Positions 10,478 through 17,263 of a stretch of 37,016 nt of DNA are shown here, piece after piece. The DNA lies in assembly GCA_003138855.1 (NCBI GenBank), contig PLHF01000100.1, forward strand, positions 1 through 37,016, read 5' to 3'. The translations under genes were made by a program, and so were the position numbers. Each line of letters starts with the position of its first letter. Position 1 is the stretch's first letter. The notes below the pieces were generated by a model. The model did no database searches. It saw nothing but the letters and a program-made list of their open reading frames with translations, and was not told the DNA's origin. The stretch is from Acidimicrobiaceae bacterium. Its GTDB lineage: Bacteria > Actinomycetota > Acidimicrobiia > Acidimicrobiales > RAAP-2.

Positions 10478-12586
10478 GTGATCGGCTTCATCTGTGGCAA
10501 GCGCTCCAAGTGGGTGGTCCTCGTGGTGTGGGTGGTGATCATGGGACTGGCCGGCGGGGCCTCCACCAAGTTGATGTCGGTGGAGAAGAACGACGCCATC
10601 TCCTTCCTCCCGCCCAATGCCCAATCCACCCAGGTCCAGAACCTGGCAGCCAGATTCCCCGGCGGGCAGACCCAACTGGCCACCGTCGTCTACCACCGGG
10701 AGGGCGGCCTGACCGCGGCCGACCTCGCCACCATCGCCTCGGACCGGCAGCGGATCGACGCCTCCCCCGACAAGGCCGCCGGGGAGCAGCCGGCCCGGGC
10801 CCCGGTGGTCTCCCCCGACCGGGCCACCGCGTACTTCTCCGTCCCCCTCTCGTCGTCCGTGGACATCAACGCCACCACTGACGGAGTGCACCACCTCCGT
10901 GCCGTGGTCGGCGAGGGGTCGGGTGGCCTGGATGTGAAGGTCACCGGTCAGGCCGCGTCCCTGGTCGACTCGGTCGGGGCCTTCAAGGGTCTGGACGGCA
11001 CGCTCCTCATCGCCGCCGGGCTGTTGGTCGCCGTCCTGCTCCTCATCATCTACCGCAGCCCCTTCCTGTGGCTGCTCCCCCTGCTCGCCGTGGGATTCGC
11101 GTACCAGGCCGCCGAGGCCCTCATCTACGAGCTGGCCCGGCACGGGCTCACCGTCAACGGCCAGAGCGGCGGCATCCTCACCGTCCTCATCTTCGGGGTC
11201 GGGACCGACTACGCCCTGCTCATCGTGGCCCGCTACCGGGAGGAGCTGGTCCGCCACGAGGACCGCCACGAAGCGATGGCCGCCGCACTCCGGAGGGTGG
11301 GGCCGACCATCCTCGCGTCCGGCGGCACGGTGACCCTCAGCCTCCTCTGCCTGCTGACCGCGTCGCTCAACTCCGACAAGGGGCTCGGCCCGGTGTGCGC
11401 CATCGGGGTGGTGGTGGTGGTGTTCGCGATGCTCACCGCACTGCCCATGCTGCTGTTGATCGTAGGCCGCGGCGTGTTCTGGCCCTTCGTCCCCCGCTAC
11501 GACGCCTCGGTCGAAGCAAACCACGCTGTCACCCAGAAGCGGCTGTGGGTGTGGCTCGGGGGACTGATCACCGGCCGGGCCCGGCCCATCTGGATCATCA
11601 CCGCCCTCCTGCTCGGGTTGATGGCCCTCGGCCTGTTCCGCCTCGACACCAATCTGACCAACGCCGAGGGGTTCACCAGGACGGTCGACTCGGTGGCCGG
11701 CCAGACCCTTCTCGAGCACGGCTTCCCCTCGGGCACCACCGCGCCCTTGCTCATCGTGGTGCCGTCCGACCGCGCTGCCGATGCCAAGCAGATCGCCAGC
11801 GGCGTCAAGGGCATCGCCGAGGTTGCTCCTCCCCAGGTCGCCGGCGAACTGGCCCAGGTGGTGGCCATCGGCACGTCGGCCGACTCGACGCCGGCCGCCG
11901 ACGCCACCATCAACGACCTGCGGGGACAGCTGGCGTCGAAGATCGGGCCCGGCGCACTGGTCGGTGGGCCCAGCGCAACCGACCTCGACGTGCGCCAGGC
12001 CACGGTGCACGACGAGAAGGTGATCATCCCCCTGGTGCTGGCAGTGGTGCTGGTGGTGCTGATGATCCTGCTGCGTGCCGTGCTCGGCCCGATCCTGCTG
12101 GTGCTGACCGTCCTGCTCTCCTACCTGGCCTCCCTCGGAGTGGCCGCGGTGGCCAACACCTCGGTGTTCGGATTCGCCGCCACCAGCCCCAGCCTCCCCT
12201 TGTTCGGTTTCATCTTCCTGGTGGCCCTCGGGTGCGACTACAACATCTTCCTCATGGCACGGGTGCGGGAGGAGGCCCTCGAACACGGAACGCGCGAGGG
12301 CACCCGTCGCGGCCTCTCCGCCACCGGCGGTGTCATCACCTCGGCCGGGCTGATCCTGGCCGGCACTTTTGCCGTGCTCGGGGTGCTGCCCCTGGTCACC
12401 CTGGCCGAGATCGGGTTCATCGTGGCCTTCGGGGTCCTCCTCGACACATTCGTGGTGCGGTCGGTGCTGGTGCCGGCCCTTGTCATGGATGCCGGACCGG
12501 CATGGTGGTGGCCGAGTGCCCTGTGGAAGCAGGAGCACTCAGCCGCGGTGACGGATGAGCCGGTGCACGAGGTGGGCGCGGCCTGA
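10478..12586 (+). CDS. MMPL/RND-family lipid transporter
   Basis: 702 residues from a GTG with a strong ribosome site (GGAAGGAG, 10 bases upstream). The layout is MMPL: TM1 (about 12-30), an extracytoplasmic loop, a block of five TMs (about 165-345), a second TM and loop, and a second TM block (about 510-680). The paired Asp-Tyr motifs of the proton relay are present as GVGTDY (Asp244-Tyr245) and ALGCDY (Asp587-Tyr588). MMPL proteins export complex lipids in actinobacteria. Here it follows four lipid-type enzymes after a 126-base gap, so it may be the exporter of their product; a separate promoter in the gap cannot be excluded. Its last 48 bases overlap the 3' end of the convergent gatD gene. 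Confidence 0.9.
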   Translation: MIGFICGKRSKWVVLVVWVVIMGLAGGASTKLMSVEKNDAISFLPPNAQSTQVQNLAARFPGGQTQLATVVYHREGGLTAADLATIASDRQRIDASPDKAAGEQPARAPVVSPDRATAYFSVPLSSSVDINATTDGVHHLRAVVGEGSGGLDVKVTGQAASLVDSVGAFKGLDGTLLIAAGLLVAVLLLIIYRSPFLWLLPLLAVGFAYQAAEALIYELARHGLTVNGQSGGILTVLIFGVGTDYALLIVARYREELVRHEDRHEAMAAALRRVGPTILASGGTVTLSLLCLLTASLNSDKGLGPVCAIGVVVVVFAMLTALPMLLLIVGRGVFWPFVPRYDASVEANHAVTQKRLWVWLGGLITGRARPIWIITALLLGLMALGLFRLDTNLTNAEGFTRTVDSVAGQTLLEHGFPSGTTAPLLIVVPSDRAADAKQIASGVKGIAEVAPPQVAGELAQVVAIGTSADSTPAADATINDLRGQLASKIGPGALVGGPSATDLDVRQATVHDEKVIIPLVLAVVLVVLMILLRAVLGPILLVLTVLLSYLASLGVAAVANTSVFGFAATSPSLPLFGFIFLVALGCDYNIFLMARVREEALEHGTREGTRRGLSATGGVITSAGLILAGTFAVLGVLPLVTLAEIGFIVAFGVLLDTFVVRSVLVPALVMDAGPAWWWPSALWKQEHSAAVTDEPVHEVGAA

Positions 12587-13351
12587 ACGGTCTACGGCGG
12601 CCAGGCGCTCGTTGCGCAGCGCCAGCTCCTCGGAGTCGTCCAGCGGGTCGAGCGGCGGCTCCGGCTCCCCGGGGCCGGCCAGTGCCCAGCTCAACAGGAG
12701 GTCGGCGAGCGCGGTGTTACGGGCCAGCACCGGTCCGTGCAGGTAGGTCCCGAGCACCCGGCCCGACCAGGCACCCTCCGACCCGTCGCCGCTTCCGTTT
12801 CCCACCCCGCTGACCACGTGGGCCAGAGCCCGCGCCCCGGGGCCCACCGAGGTCACACCGCCGTGGTTCTCGAAGCCGGTCAGACGGGGCAGCGATCCGC
12901 CACCGCCCGGACGGGGCCCGTCCGGAGCCGCGGTGGCCACCAGCTCGCCCACGGCCCGTGGGCCGGTGCCCTTGCGGGTCGTGACGTCGAGAAGTCCGAG
13001 ACCCTCCTGGGGGCGGTCCGAGCTGTCGGGGAAGAACCGTCCGAGCAGTTGGAAGCCGGCGCAGACGCCGAAGACGACCGCACCGCGATCCGCGGCCCGG
13101 AGCAGGGTCCCGTCCTCTCGGAGCGCGGTGGCGGCGCGGACCTGCGGACCGTCCTCCCCGCCCCCGATGCAGTAGAGATCGGCGGTGGGGAGGGGACGCC
13201 CCGAGTCCGCCTGGATCAGCTGGGCGTAGATGCCGCGCCACGATGCCCGGCGCGCCAGGACCAGGCCGTTCCCGCCGTCCCCATACGTGCCGAGTAGGTC
13301 GGGAAATACCACGGCGACGGTGAGCGCCGAGCCACCGGTGGGCGCACTCAC
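12539..13351 (-). CDS. gatD: Lipid II isoglutaminyl synthase, glutaminase subunit GatD
   Basis: 270 residues, a class-I glutamine amidotransferase of the CobB/CobQ-like type. The nucleophile is Cys97 in VVFGVCAGFQLLG, and the catalytic His205 is in GTYLHGPVLARN, followed by Glu-rich ends. GFENHGG lies between them, as in known GatD. It releases ammonia from glutamine for MurT, which amidates D-Glu of the lipid II stem peptide to D-isoglutamine, at the cytoplasmic membrane face. The GTG start overlaps the murT stop as GTGA, so the two are translationally coupled in the known order murT-gatD. Its 3' end overlaps the MMPL gene. Confidence 0.93.
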   Translation of the reverse strand: MSAPTGGSALTVAVVFPDLLGTYGDGGNGLVLARRASWRGIYAQLIQADSGRPLPTADLYCIGGGEDGPQVRAATALREDGTLLRAADRGAVVFGVCAGFQLLGRFFPDSSDRPQEGLGLLDVTTRKGTGPRAVGELVATAAPDGPRPGGGGSLPRLTGFENHGGVTSVGPGARALAHVVSGVGNGSGDGSEGAWSGRVLGTYLHGPVLARNTALADLLLSWALAGPGEPEPPLDPLDDSEELALRNERLAAVDRSGRAHLVHRLIRHRG

Positions 13352-14712
13352 AACTGCCTCCTCAGGTCGGCGAACGCGGTGTAGTTGCCAAGGAACTCGA
13401 CGGTTCCCGCGCCCCGGTCCGGGCCGACGGTTCCCAGATCGGTCAGGTCCAACGCCAGGTCGAGCGCGGCCAGGGGACCGTCGACCACGGCATGGGTGAC
13501 CTCGGCATACCGCAGCCGCACCGCCAGATCGAGGCGCCGGTCGCCGGTGGCGACCACCGACCGTCCGGCCAGGCGCTCGAAGGGAACGTCCCACAGCCAA
13601 CTGGTGTCGAGGCCGTCGGCGACCCGGGCATTGACCGACAGCACGACCGGGGCGCCACAGGTCCCGGCCTCGTCCAACAGGTCGAAAATGGCGGTCCACC
13701 CGGCAGGGTTCTTGGCCAGTAGCAGCCGGACCGGCCGGCCCCTCCGCACGGTGGACGAGAAGCGGCCGGCGACCTGGTCGACGGAGGCGAGGCGGGCCAG
13801 GAGACCGGGTAGCAGCGGCGTGGACCGCGGTGCCCCTCCCGGTGTCTCGCTCGCCGGCATCTCGGTGGCAGCCAGAGCGGCCATGGCCGCGTTGGCTCGA
13901 TTGAACTGTCCGGGGAGCCCCAGAAAGAGCACCTGCCGGGTACCGTCGGCCATCACCAGGTCGGCACCCTCCAGCCAGGCGTCCCGCACGGGCCGGGCGA
14001 AGTCGCACCGGTCACATGCCCAGGCCCCTCCGGCGCCGAACTCGATCCGGCCACCGCAGGCCGGGCAGCCGACGGCATCGTCGTGCCACACCTGGCCGGC
14101 GCCCACCCAGCGGACGTCCGGCGCCGCCAGGGCCGCCCATACCACCATGGGATCGTCGGCATTTGCCACCACGACCGTGCCCCTTCCGCCGGGGTCGGAG
14201 GCTCCCGAAAGGCCGGCCAGTGCCGCCCGCCACCGGTCGACCAGCATCCTCACCTCGGCGATACGATCGAGCTGGTCCCGCGACAGGTTGAGCAGGACCA
14301 CCACACGCGGACGGGTCTCCTCGATCAGCCGGCCGAGATAGCTCTCGTCCACCTCGAGCACCGCAGCAGTCGCCCGGGGCGATTCGACCATGGCGGCCAC
14401 ATGGCCGGCGGGCATGTTGGCGCCCGTATCGTTGGAGGCGATCGCGGGCCCCGCCGCACCCGAGAGGGCTGCCACCAGCATGCGGGTGGTGGTGGTCTTC
14501 CCGTTGGTGCCGGTGACCAGGACCACGTCCCTGTCGCGGGCCAGCGTTGCCAGCAGGGTGGGGTCGACGACCAGCCCGGCACGACCCCCGACCACCGTGC
14601 CGCTCCCGCGTCCGAGCACCCTCGACAGCCGGTTGGCCACCTTGACCACCCCGACGGCAACCGAGGCGCGGGCCGACAGGGTGACCGTCGGCGCGCCAGC
14701 GTCGATGGTCAC
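13348..14712 (-). CDS. murT: Lipid II isoglutaminyl synthase, Mur-ligase-like subunit MurT
   Basis: 454 residues. The Mur ligase ATP-binding loop is GTNGKTTTT (68-76), followed by NDTGANMPAGH and the central-domain motif LNLSRDQLDR. A Cys4 zinc-ribbon insertion (Cys216, Cys219, Cys233, Cys236) is the hallmark separating MurT from MurC-F. The C-terminal domain (about 330-454) is the DUF1727 type, with LLLAKNPAGWT and FLGNYTAF. It activates the D-Glu alpha-carboxylate with ATP and receives ammonia from GatD. The GTG start overlaps the stop of the upstream HAD-PlsC gene (GTGA), and its own stop overlaps gatD. Confidence 0.94.
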   Translation of the reverse strand: MTIDAGAPTVTLSARASVAVGVVKVANRLSRVLGRGSGTVVGGRAGLVVDPTLLATLARDRDVVLVTGTNGKTTTTRMLVAALSGAAGPAIASNDTGANMPAGHVAAMVESPRATAAVLEVDESYLGRLIEETRPRVVVLLNLSRDQLDRIAEVRMLVDRWRAALAGLSGASDPGGRGTVVVANADDPMVVWAALAAPDVRWVGAGQVWHDDAVGCPACGGRIEFGAGGAWACDRCDFARPVRDAWLEGADLVMADGTRQVLFLGLPGQFNRANAAMAALAATEMPASETPGGAPRSTPLLPGLLARLASVDQVAGRFSSTVRRGRPVRLLLAKNPAGWTAIFDLLDEAGTCGAPVVLSVNARVADGLDTSWLWDVPFERLAGRSVVATGDRRLDLAVRLRYAEVTHAVVDGPLAALDLALDLTDLGTVGPDRGAGTVEFLGNYTAFADLRRQL

Positions 14713-16091
14713 GCCGAAGGTCGGCTGCGGGCGAGTTCCTCTTTCGTCGGGACGTGCTCGATGCGGGACTCCGCCGGCAGCAGGTCGGCGATCGCCGACA
14801 TCAGCGCGGCGGTGTCCGCCACTGCATCCTCGAGCCCGAGCTCCACAGCCCTCCCCACCCTCACGGTCACCCTGGGCGGATGCTGCAGGTGCGCCATGTT
14901 GGGCACCTTGGACGACCGCGGCCAGACCTTCTCCGTCCCCCAGACCCCGATGGGGATGACCGGAGCCCCGGTCTCGGCGGCCAGGCGGGCTGCCCCGGTG
15001 TGGCCCTTCAGGACCGGGTCGAAGAACGCCTCACCCCGCGGGATGGTCCCCTGGGGCAGGACGATGACCACTTCGCCCGCACGCAGTGCGGCCGCGGCAC
15101 GGTGCATCGGCTCCGACGCATGGCTCCCCCGGTCCACCGGGATGCCCCCGAGGGCGCGGGCCAACTGCCCGACCACCGGTGCGTCGAACACCTCCTGCTT
15201 TCCCATGAAGCGCACCGGTCGACGCAGTTCGGATGCGACCAGCCCGATTGCCGCGACGTCGAAGTAACTCCGGTGGTTCGACACCAGCAGCACCGGGCCG
15301 GTCTTCGGGATGTGCCCGACGCCGGTCACCTTGAAGCGCGCATAGGGGAACGCCTCGGGCCGGAAGAACAGACGCATCAGGTGGTAGGGCTCCAGCCCCC
15401 CCACCGTCGGCACACCCGAGGAATGGTCCCAGTACTCGAGGGGCCACCTCCGGGCCATGGCCACCGCCGCCAGCCGCGGGTCTGCGTTCAACGGGTGGGG
15501 ATGTCCGACCTCATGCAGCAGAGGGAGGTCGAAGAAGCTGTCCGTGTAGAGGTGCGAGGCGCCGAGGTCGACGCCGTGGTCGGCCGCCCACTGCCTGGCC
15601 GCGGTCCGCTTGCCCACGCCCCAGACGAACCCACCCTCGAGCTTGCCCGTGTAGTGACCGTCGACCTCGGCATAGCGGGTGGCGATCACCCCGTCGAAGC
15701 CGAGCGCATCAGCCAGGGGCAACACCAGGTCCACCGGGGACGTGGTGGCCAGCACCAGTGGCAGCCCCTCGGCCCGGTGGGCGGCCAGGGTCTCGAGGGC
15801 CAACGGTTGGACCAGCTCGACCAGGGGCTCGACCGACCGCTTCCCGGCCCGGCGCACGGCATCGGCCGAGCGGTTGCGCATCAGGGGGGCAGCGGCCCGG
15901 GCCAACCCCATGAACGGCACCGACTCGCCGAACAGGTCGTAGAACCGGTACATGTACCGGTCACCGGGAAGATGGCGCCCGGCAGGCAGGACGCCCTCGG
16001 CCACCATCGCCTCGTGGAACACCGGCCCACTGGCCGACCGGATCAGGGTCCGGTCCAGATCGACGAACACGGCTCCTTGGGTTTCGGACAT
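14709..16091 (-). CDS. HAD-IB phosphatase-PlsC acyltransferase fusion
   Basis: 460 residues. Residues 6-205 are a HAD-IB domain: motif I DLDRTL (Asp11, Asp13), motif II ATTSP and motif IV YTDSFFDLPLL. Residues 225-445 are a PlsC domain with NHRSYFD (HX4D) and PQGTIPRG in place of FPEGT, then GAARLAAETGAPVIPIG. The same architecture is known in the mycobacterial PlsC/Rv2483c group. It should acylate a lysophosphatidate-like acceptor; the HAD part may dephosphorylate the product or an intermediate. TAGCGT stands 6 bases before the ATG, so a leaderless promoter is possible in addition to the upstream 6C RNA promoter. It is the first gene of a coupled operon with murT and gatD. Confidence 0.9.
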   Translation of the reverse strand: MSETQGAVFVDLDRTLIRSASGPVFHEAMVAEGVLPAGRHLPGDRYMYRFYDLFGESVPFMGLARAAAPLMRNRSADAVRRAGKRSVEPLVELVQPLALETLAAHRAEGLPLVLATTSPVDLVLPLADALGFDGVIATRYAEVDGHYTGKLEGGFVWGVGKRTAARQWAADHGVDLGASHLYTDSFFDLPLLHEVGHPHPLNADPRLAAVAMARRWPLEYWDHSSGVPTVGGLEPYHLMRLFFRPEAFPYARFKVTGVGHIPKTGPVLLVSNHRSYFDVAAIGLVASELRRPVRFMGKQEVFDAPVVGQLARALGGIPVDRGSHASEPMHRAAAALRAGEVVIVLPQGTIPRGEAFFDPVLKGHTGAARLAAETGAPVIPIGVWGTEKVWPRSSKVPNMAHLQHPPRVTVRVGRAVELGLEDAVADTAALMSAIADLLPAESRIEHVPTKEELARSRPSA

Positions 16092-16097
16092 GGGCTC

Positions 16098-16103
16098 ACG
16101 CTA
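16098..16103 (-). promoter_or_regulatory. Putative leaderless -10 box of the HAD-PlsC/murT/gatD operon
   Basis: TAGCGT on the minus strand, 6 bases before the ATG at 16091. It would give the operon its own start independent of the 6C RNA promoter about 190 bases upstream. Confidence 0.35.
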
Positions 16104-16193
16104 CCGCCCACCCGCACGGAGCGGGAGACCATAGGGGGGCCGAACCCGCAAGTCCGTTGCCGCCACCTTGGCCACGATCTGCCCCCGGACGCG

Positions 16194-16281
16194 GCGAAGG
16201 GACCGCCAGGGGGGGTAGGCGATCCCTTCGCACTGACACAAACAGGAAAGGAGGGGGATTCCTTATGCTCCTGCGGTCGTA
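16194..16281 (-). ncRNA. 6C-type small RNA (two hairpins with C-rich loops)
   Basis: On the minus strand, two hairpins follow a good promoter. Hairpin 1 (16264-16248): AAGGA, loop ATCCCCC, TCCTT. Hairpin 2 (16231-16194): a 14-bp stem with one U-G pair (outer arms GCGAAGGGA and TCCCTTCGC, inner CGCC/GGCG) closing a loop TACCCCCCCT with seven C. Two stem-loops each exposing a run of C define the actinobacterial 6C RNA (B11 of Mycobacterium), which pairs with G-rich mRNA segments. The length from predicted start to hairpin end, 88 bases, agrees with that RNA. As I recall, in M. tuberculosis it also lies next to a HAD-IB gene (Rv3661); here the next gene is HAD-PlsC. No U-tract follows, so termination or processing is unclear. 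Confidence 0.72.
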
Positions 16282-16288
16282 TTGAAAG

Positions 16289-16316
16289 CGTATAACACTC
16301 GCGAGCAATCAGTCAA
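16289..16316 (-). promoter_or_regulatory. Promoter of the 6C-type RNA (TTGACT-16-TATACG)
   Basis: On the minus strand TTGACT (16316-16311) and TATACG (16294-16289) are separated by 16 bases, a good match to the major sigma-factor consensus in one of the few AT-rich patches of the window. The expected transcript start is near 16282-16280, just before the 6C hairpins. Confidence 0.6.
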
Positions 16317-16328
16317 ACAGCTTATTTC

Positions 16329-16341
16329 GATAGCTGCTATC
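16329..16341. promoter_or_regulatory. Inverted repeat, candidate LysR binding site
   Basis: GATAGC-T-GCTATC is a perfect 6+1+6 inverted repeat. Its right arm overlaps TATCTT (16338-16343), the -10-like box of the lysR gene. Its centre lies about 53 bases upstream of the predicted 6C RNA start. Both positions are classical for a LysR-type recognition site that represses its own gene and acts on the divergent one. Confidence 0.5.
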
Positions 16342-16351
16342 TTCTTTAGTG

Positions 16352-17263
16352 ATGGAACTACGGCACCTCCAGGCACTGACCGCCATCAGCGACCACCGCA
16401 CCTTCTCTGCCGCGGCCGAGCACCTGGGCACCGTCCAGTCCAATGTCTCTGCCCATATCGCCCGCCTCGAGCGCGAGCTGGGCGCCCCGATGATCGACCG
16501 CTCGGACGGCCACCTCACCGAGGAAGGCCTGGTGGTGGTGGCCCGGGCCCGCCGGATCCTCTCCGAGCTCGACGCGCTCGTCTCCGATGTGGCCGCCTGC
16601 CGGGACGAGGTGACCGGCACCGTCCGGGTGGGCATCATCGGGACCACCGCTCGGTGGCTGGTCCCCCAGGTGATGGACGCCGCCCACCAACGCCACCCCA
16701 AGCTGCGGCTGGTGATAGTAGAGGGCACCACCACCAGCATGGAACCCCAACTGGCCTCGGGCCAGCTCGACCTGGCCGTGCTCAACCTGCCGGTCGGCCG
16801 CGACCTGGTGGCCAGCCTGCTCTTCGAAGAGGATCTGATGCTGGTGGTGCCCGAGGGCCACCCCATGGCCACTCCCGACCGCCCCCTCACCCTGGAGGAC
16901 CTGGCCGACCTGGAGCTCCTGCTGCCCCTGCCGGGCACCGCCTTCCGTGACGAGCTCGATTCCGTCACCCGTCCACTGGGGATCAGCCTGCTTCCCGCCG
17001 CCGAGATCGACGGCCTCCGGCTCATCGCCTCGCTGACCTTCGACGGGTACGGACCGGCCATCCTGCCGGCAACGGCCATTCCCACCGTCCTGCGCTCCCG
17101 GTTCTTCCCGGTGGCGGTCGAGGGACTCCCCCGCCGACAGGTCGGTGTGGCCCAGCGCAGCAGGGGGCTCCCCTCGGCCCCCACCCGGGCCCTGCTCGAA
17201 TTGGTGCAGGCCGTGGTGGCTTCACCCGCTCGCCGGCCCCAAGGCGTCCACGTCAGGCCCTGA
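16352..17263 (+). CDS. LysR-family transcriptional regulator
   Basis: 303 residues. The N-terminal winged helix-turn-helix is typical (ELRHLQALTAISDHRTFSAA, then VQSNVSAHIARLERELG; about residues 2-60), and from about 90 comes a periplasmic-binding-protein-like effector domain (VRVGIIGTTARWLVP, QLASGQLDLAVLNLP, LEDLADLELLLPLPG). TATCTT ends 8 bases before the ATG at 16352, so the mRNA is probably leaderless; a GTG three bases upstream is possible. It is divergent from the 6C RNA and the HAD-PlsC/murT/gatD operon, and a perfect inverted repeat lies in its promoter. The effector is unknown. Confidence 0.9.
   Translation: MELRHLQALTAISDHRTFSAAAEHLGTVQSNVSAHIARLERELGAPMIDRSDGHLTEEGLVVVARARRILSELDALVSDVAACRDEVTGTVRVGIIGTTARWLVPQVMDAAHQRHPKLRLVIVEGTTTSMEPQLASGQLDLAVLNLPVGRDLVASLLFEEDLMLVVPEGHPMATPDRPLTLEDLADLELLLPLPGTAFRDELDSVTRPLGISLLPAAEIDGLRLIASLTFDGYGPAILPATAIPTVLRSRFFPVAVEGLPRRQVGVAQRSRGLPSAPTRALLELVQAVVASPARRPQGVHVRP

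Follow-up and report, generated by a model that had tools for sequence, protein, structure and literature searches.

A predicted 6C-like small RNA with two C-rich hairpin loops, encoded between a LysR gene and HAD-PlsC, murT and gatD in Acidimicrobiales

Introduction

The closest described counterparts of the element reported here are the 6C RNA of mycobacteria, Streptomyces and other Actinomycetales (Rfam RF01066; B11 in mycobacteria, cgb_03605 in C. glutamicum) and the alpha-r14 or cuckoo RNAs of alphaproteobacteria (RF02344). The C. glutamicum report describes 6C for many Actinomycetales genera, finds it at about 100 nt on Northern blots and gives a link to GlxR, its function being unknown to those authors (PMC4046766). 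In M. marinum, the RNA is 93 nt long and the terminator hairpin carries a C-rich seed loop; it represses mRNAs that carry G-tracks adjacent to the ribosome-binding site, and the other C-loop is dispensable there (PMC12395582). In M. abscessus, repression persisted when either C-loop was mutated singly, and the target contains a six-G tract (PMC10470900). Among the alpha-r14 RNAs, the C-rich-loop small RNA NfeR1 of Sinorhizobium is activated by the LysR protein LsrB (PMC10746234). No report of a 6C RNA in Acidimicrobiales was found in the literature searched, a body of text with most subscription literature outside it.

Here we describe a locus in a 37,016-nt contig of a soil bacterium of the Acidimicrobiaceae (PLHF01000100.1, assembly GCA_003138855.1), the whole of which we refer to as the window. 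A first-pass annotation had proposed a 6C-type RNA with its own promoter at 16194–16316, an interval that runs from the foot of a hairpin to the start of a −35 box and whose description fits what we find. We consider it likely that the locus encodes a 6C-type small RNA that is free-standing and acts in trans.

Results

The RNA gene and its fold

The 6C-like RNA gene is predicted at positions 16183–16279 on the minus strand, giving a transcript of about 97 nt with both ends placed from the sequence; it matches our covariance model R1 (see below) and lies in a block conserved in 30 genomes. Reading along the minus strand, a TATACG box is followed by 9 nt and then by CGACCGCAGG, which begins at 16279. 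Hairpin 1 (16235–16278) has an outer stem GAC...GUC and an inner stem AGGA/UCCU, both taken from single folds and from covariation among 58 sequences. Its loop (16253–16259) reads AUCCCCC, with five Cs, and together with the adjoining UCCU forms CCCCCUCCU, or CCCCCUCCUUUC when the loop is read with its flank; this region presumably resembles or holds the anti-Shine-Dalgarno sequence of 16S rRNA. Hairpin 2 (16194–16231) has a 14-pair stem with 13 Watson-Crick pairs and one U-G pair, closed by the loop UACCCCCCCU (16208–16217) with its run of seven Cs. It is followed by the 3′ tail CGCGUCCGGGG (16183–16193), which has no U-tract; within the tail, CGCGU is present in 48 of 58 sequences and UCCGG in 23. 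The two hairpins with C5 and C7 loops, the second on a 14-pair stem, had been predicted in the first-pass annotation and are borne out on the minus strand by sequence, fold and covariation.

Folded as a single sequence, the segment 16284–16185 reaches −44 kcal/mol (z −4.7), and none of 200 shuffles was as low. However, a lone hairpin with at least ten pairs (G-U allowed) and at least five Cs in its loop is not rare, with 20 arising in 40 shuffles of the 37-kb window on both strands, and it is the comparison across relatives that decides. A scan of the whole window against Rfam at gathering score returned nothing other than a minus-strand tRNA at 1–49, which is cut by the contig end.

Conservation and covariation

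A DNA search of 61 genomes (the organism's own and its relatives) recovered the block in the genus and the family. It gave matches at E≤1 in 59, many of them noise, and 31 sequences from 30 genomes, those with loci, were used. By eye, conservation in the relatives' loci covers the −35 region through the tail and weakens beyond. All cells (100%) of hairpin 2 are paired in these 31 sequences, and 8 of the 14 pairs show changes on both sides (RNAalifold). RNAalifold on the sequence-only alignment of the 31 returned hairpin 2 and two pairs in another register, with hairpin 1 absent; the hairpin 1 pairs were set by hand from single folds, a few sequences folding otherwise. In the 31-sequence alignment the hand-set pairs are 88% and 80% paired, 28 of 500 shuffles matched the count of further pair types, and both-sided changes are seen in 12 of the 27 pairs of the two hairpins.

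R1 was built from the relatives' sequences with the window included; a second model, R2, is another model of the RNA. The R1 match in the own genome scores 102 bits (E 5.8e-14), the window being among its building sequences. At E≤0.01, R1 finds the RNA in 47 of 198 Acidimicrobiales genomes, with 52 matches; of these, 30 already had loci, 20 more loci were added, and G161:C1 and G048:C20 were left out. Alignment A3 comprises the 58 matches that reach E≤1e-4 among 57 sources, L088, L096 and L100 having been dropped as repeats. A further 20 weaker loci are counted apart and may include false matches, as L135 and L136 seem to be.

Across the 58 sequences, 93.7% of cells are paired and there are both-sided changes in 25 of 27 pairs, in an alignment that was fitted to the R1 structure and so leans toward it; none of 500 shuffles reaches any of five measures. 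Hairpin 1 contributes 87% paired cells and both-sided changes in 13 of 13 pairs, and hairpin 2 contributes 99.6% and 12 of 14. Both C-runs have at least five Cs in all 58 sequences and at least six in 40, and CCUCC is present in hairpin 1 in 46. G-U pairs are retained (17 of 58 at one pair), which indicates that the RNA is the minus strand. Of 36 loci collected from relatives by HAD protein search, 20 have an R2 match at E<0.01 immediately upstream of HAD, a count that is not independent since some of the genomes had already been counted. The nearest named relative found is the metagenome-assembled Acidimicrobiales isolate Chersky.15_37, the HAD protein of which is 85% identical.

The promoter and the divergent LysR gene

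The RNA is preceded on the minus strand by a −35 box TTGACT (16311–16316) and a −10 box TATACG (16289–16294) separated by a 16-nt spacer, the promoter given in the first-pass annotation, which is upheld by the sequence and by conservation upstream of the RNA over 58 loci. In 39 of the 58, TTGAC is found in the 52 nt that precede the RNA, and in 48 the −10 box ends 5–10 nt short of the modelled 5′ end. The best −35/−10 pair in these 52 nt scores a mean of 9.05 out of 12 over the 58 loci, versus 4.95 in a downstream stretch. A strict promoter scan found none around the RNA; its rule requires T at the last −10 position, which is why it missed TATACG.

On the other side of this promoter is a divergent gene for a LysR-type regulator (16352–17263, plus strand; Pfam PF00126 and PF03466), with an ATG at 16352 in a reading frame that opens at a GTG at 16349. 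A LysR gene is divergent from the RNA in 49 of 58 loci, the other nine being without one within the DNA examined, and its start lies 66–76 nt from the RNA 5′ end in 44 of 56 LysR-bearing loci. A TANNNT −10-like box is present just before the LysR start in 32 of 49 loci, and in the window this is TATCTT at 16338–16343. Overlapping it, between the RNA and LysR promoters, is a GATA-N5-TATC dyad (16329–16341) that is found in 30 of 49 LysR loci and is a candidate operator. Control of the RNA by the LysR protein is plausible, because a LysR protein activates the C-loop small RNA NfeR1 in Sinorhizobium.

A position between divergent genes, with a dyad nearby, could also suit palindromes that act in the DNA, as an operator or a bidirectional terminator, with no RNA made. 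We regard this as highly improbable, since G-U pairs are kept in the stems, all 58 sequences have their C-run loops on the same strand, and the promoter is on that strand.

Genes downstream of the RNA

Downstream on the minus strand are genes for a HAD hydrolase-acyltransferase (HAD-PlsC, 14709–16091; PF12710 and PF01553), murT (13348–14712; PF08353 and PF08245), and gatD (12539–13324, start approximate), with a glutamine amidotransferase domain (PF07685). The HAD-type gene adjoins the RNA on the same strand, as had been noted previously. The relatives are similar: 46 of 58 loci have HAD (41) or murT (5) directly downstream and co-directional with the RNA; the loci end about 1.5 kb away, some of them at contig ends. 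Neither gene is present in 12 of the 58, and four have none of HAD, murT and LysR (some of these reach contig ends). The 20 weaker loci comprise six with HAD, two with murT and 12 with neither. In seven loci without HAD, murT is directly downstream of the RNA.

The earlier suggestion that the RNA doubles as the HAD leader is one explanation of this arrangement, and hairpin 2 would then be an attenuator or translation switch in the 5′ leader of HAD-murT-gatD. It would account for the shared strand and adjacency in 46 of 58 loci, for the loci where murT takes the place next to the RNA, and for those in which the estimated gap to HAD or murT is less than 20 nt. However, the gap is estimated to vary from 4 to 351 nt, and by eye it holds little in common apart from a TANNNT box. 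A TANNNT box just before the start codon is the form taken by leaderless actinobacterial promoters, and the window has one, TAGCGT (16098–16103, minus strand), 6 nt before the HAD start codon. Of 51 HAD or murT genes, 36 have such a box 4–9 nt ahead of the closest in-frame start, 26 of them at exactly 6 nt, versus 44 of 5848 ATG or GTG codons elsewhere in the same loci (0.75%); three of 54 downstream genes in which a start was not found were omitted. Counting any in-frame start raises the figure to 45 of 51, but the control is for single starts and 36 of 51 is the fair figure. The boxes make it unlikely that the RNA serves as the HAD leader, and the presence of the RNA without HAD or murT in 12 of 58 loci and in 12 of the 20 weaker ones (some at contig ends) is against it too, such that the earlier suggestion is not supported. 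The RNA and HAD-PlsC-murT-gatD are most simply, and probably, two separate transcription units. We note that the HAD-PlsC and murT genes of Acidimicrobiales look leaderless, with TAGCGT-like boxes mostly exactly 6 nt before the start (positions 16089–16103 in the window, and relatives).

Relationship to 6C RNA

The RF01066 covariance model, which the first-pass annotation had pointed to as a check, gives no match at E≤10 in 16090–16360, nor in 20 loci made up of the window's own and 19 from relatives. The RNA is 6C-like and is not a member of RF01066 as modelled. In the whole of the own genome the model has one match of 20.3 bits, on another contig (gathering score 47 bits). Among 296 genomes of the phylum, 24 match at E≤0.01 and 12 of these are above the cut-off. 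C. glutamicum, a known 6C carrier (PMC4046766), has a match below the cut-off, which may or may not be that RNA. The layout itself, as the first-pass annotation said, is that of 6C, with two hairpins with C-rich loops of about six Cs each (C5 and C7 here) and a promoter of its own.

The RNA may be a true 6C orthologue at an inherited locus, too diverged for the Rfam model, and several observations bear on this. Of 26 Rfam-6C loci, R2 matches 16, in each case at the 6C site, and it has no further match in 80 kb; R1 matches 17 of the sites and three other places in 83 kb. In 13 of the 26 loci hairpin 2 has UCCGG after it, versus 266 of 9306 background windows (2.9%), although six of the 13 are from one genus. 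However, the R2 matches score 13–23.5 bits (E 0.016–1.5), and on the antisense of its own hairpin R2 scores 14–25 bits, with one off-site match of 17.6 bits. As the cross-scores are no better than the antisense scores, they speak for like shape and not for descent. In an alignment of the classical 6C sequences (25 of 26, with L084 omitted) the groups are out of register with one another.

A HAD gene is beside 17 of the 26 Rfam-6C loci, which supports the HAD-type neighbour pointed out in the first-pass annotation, but there it is always divergent, and no murT was found beside classical 6C. The 6C-adjacent HAD is its genome's best match to the window HAD domain in 6 of 10 genomes, and in the other four there is a 6C match without a HAD neighbour. 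In a tree of 38 different HAD sequences (those shorter than 150 aa or identical were dropped), the 6C-adjacent proteins group with other HADs (95/89) and not with those of Acidimicrobiales, yet joining the two is not rejected (AU p 0.109). HAD orthology was considered as proof of a common locus; the tree does not support it and the AU test does not reject it. Taken from the architecture, the weak cross-hits, the UCCGG tail and the HAD neighbour, kinship with 6C is suggested and not proven, and we see orthology of the RNA with 6C as evenly balanced.

Relationship to alpha-r14 RNAs

The RF02344 model does not reach its gathering score of 58.8 bits in any of the 20 loci, and has no match at 16090–16360 in the window. 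Weak matches lie over the RNA in L014, L015 and L019, at 21.8–26.3 bits (the best in L014) with E values of 0.68–6.7. These matches, CCUCC in hairpin 1 in 46 of 58 sequences, and the LysR control of an alpha-r14 RNA would fit an unrelated C-loop small RNA that has converged on the form of the alpha-r14 RNAs. However, the matches are at chance level and far below the cut-off, the alpha-r14 RNAs have three hairpins, and the tail and the HAD neighbour point to 6C. Convergence is a real possibility, to which we give rather less than even weight.

Additional copies

In L018 (G010) the RNA occurs as two near-identical tandem copies (1–93 and 430–523) next to a single LysR gene, and both copies have a −35 box of the TTGAA type. 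In family f16, three genomes have two or three R1 matches each, and RNA matches in nine loci of this family (L108, L110, L120, L121, L123, L124, L125, L127 and L132) are without HAD, murT or LysR alongside. Copies L110, L123, L124 and L127 have a TTGAC box upstream, and L121 and L123 precede an ORF that we take to be malic-enzyme-like. R2 matches outside the order (E 0.003–0.008) resemble ordinary hairpins on inspection.

Discussion

As a free-standing small RNA, the element would work as follows. RNA polymerase would start from TTGACT/TATACG, with the divergent LysR protein probably controlling this promoter, and the transcript, about 97 nt long, would terminate at hairpin 2 or shortly beyond it. 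Hairpin 1 would expose C5 and then UCC, and hairpin 2 would expose C7; through these loops the RNA would pair with G-rich stretches located at, or adjacent to, the ribosome-binding sites of mRNAs made elsewhere. By analogy, pairing would block translation and speed decay, effects that have been measured for mycobacterial B11/6C. Loop 1 with its flank may bind ribosome sites broadly, since this stretch presumably holds the anti-Shine-Dalgarno sequence. HAD-PlsC-murT-gatD would be a separate unit with its own leaderless-type promoter. The retention of the C-loops in 58 of 58 sequences while the stems change, and the f16 copies away from HAD, murT and LysR, both support the small RNA reading; on the other side, the common direction with HAD or murT in 46 of 58 loci, with some gaps below 20 nt, would also suit a role in cis.

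The 3′ end is uncertain, because hairpin 2 is followed by CGCGUCCGGGG and not by a U-tract; a search for terminator-like sites in 15900–16500 found none. A general terminator tail was considered and, for the own genome, dropped: CCCTTC-N0-3-CGCGT occurs there 9 times and its reversed form 14 times, and on inspection no place other than the RNA forms such a hairpin. In other genomes, plain GC-rich hairpins in L136 (2211–2279), L145 and L143 are followed by CGCGTCCGGG, so that some lineages may have a terminator tail that lacks Us.

A scan of the own genome for candidate targets found GGAGGGGG 3–9 nt before an ATG at 27 sites, one of which is the RNA's own antisense, versus 11 for the reversed pattern, an excess no greater than any Shine-Dalgarno-like pattern would give. 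Among the 27 are ORFs that we take to resemble an HMG-CoA-lyase-type enzyme, a short-chain dehydrogenase, a fructose-bisphosphatase-type protein and a P450.

More tentatively, the RNA may represent an unlisted family of C-loop small RNAs that is widespread in Acidimicrobiales, forms a module with the divergent LysR gene and, in some lineages, has spread as copies that lie apart from that gene. Together with 6C and alpha-r14, this family would make three versions of the same strategy, RNA mimicry of the ribosome's anti-Shine-Dalgarno sequence, here adjoining genes of lipid II amidation (murT-gatD). The RNA would extend the 6C-type regulator from Actinomycetales to Acidimicrobiales, it suggests that C-loop regulators are more widespread than catalogued, and it places a candidate regulator, LysR, next to the RNA. 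The standard 6C model misses RNAs of such layout, and the 58-sequence alignment, with its strong covariation, could become an Rfam family.

Compared with the alpha-r14 RNAs, the likeness is in the C-rich anti-Shine-Dalgarno motifs in the loops and, for NfeR1, in activation by a LysR protein (PMC10746234). However, the alpha-r14 RNAs have three hairpins with CCUCCUCCC; they belong to another phylum, and their model scores far below its cut-off here. The similarities to 6C include the length of about 90–100 nt, C-rich hairpin loops, an own promoter, a last hairpin with a long GC-rich stem, an adjacent HAD-type gene (17 of 26 6C loci) and the UCCGG tail (13 of 26). There are also departures from 6C, in that the hairpin 1 loop is here followed by UCC and RF01066 has no match, the HAD gene is co-directional with the RNA and not divergent from it, and LysR and murT are present at this locus, whereas the classical 6C loci examined have no match to either.
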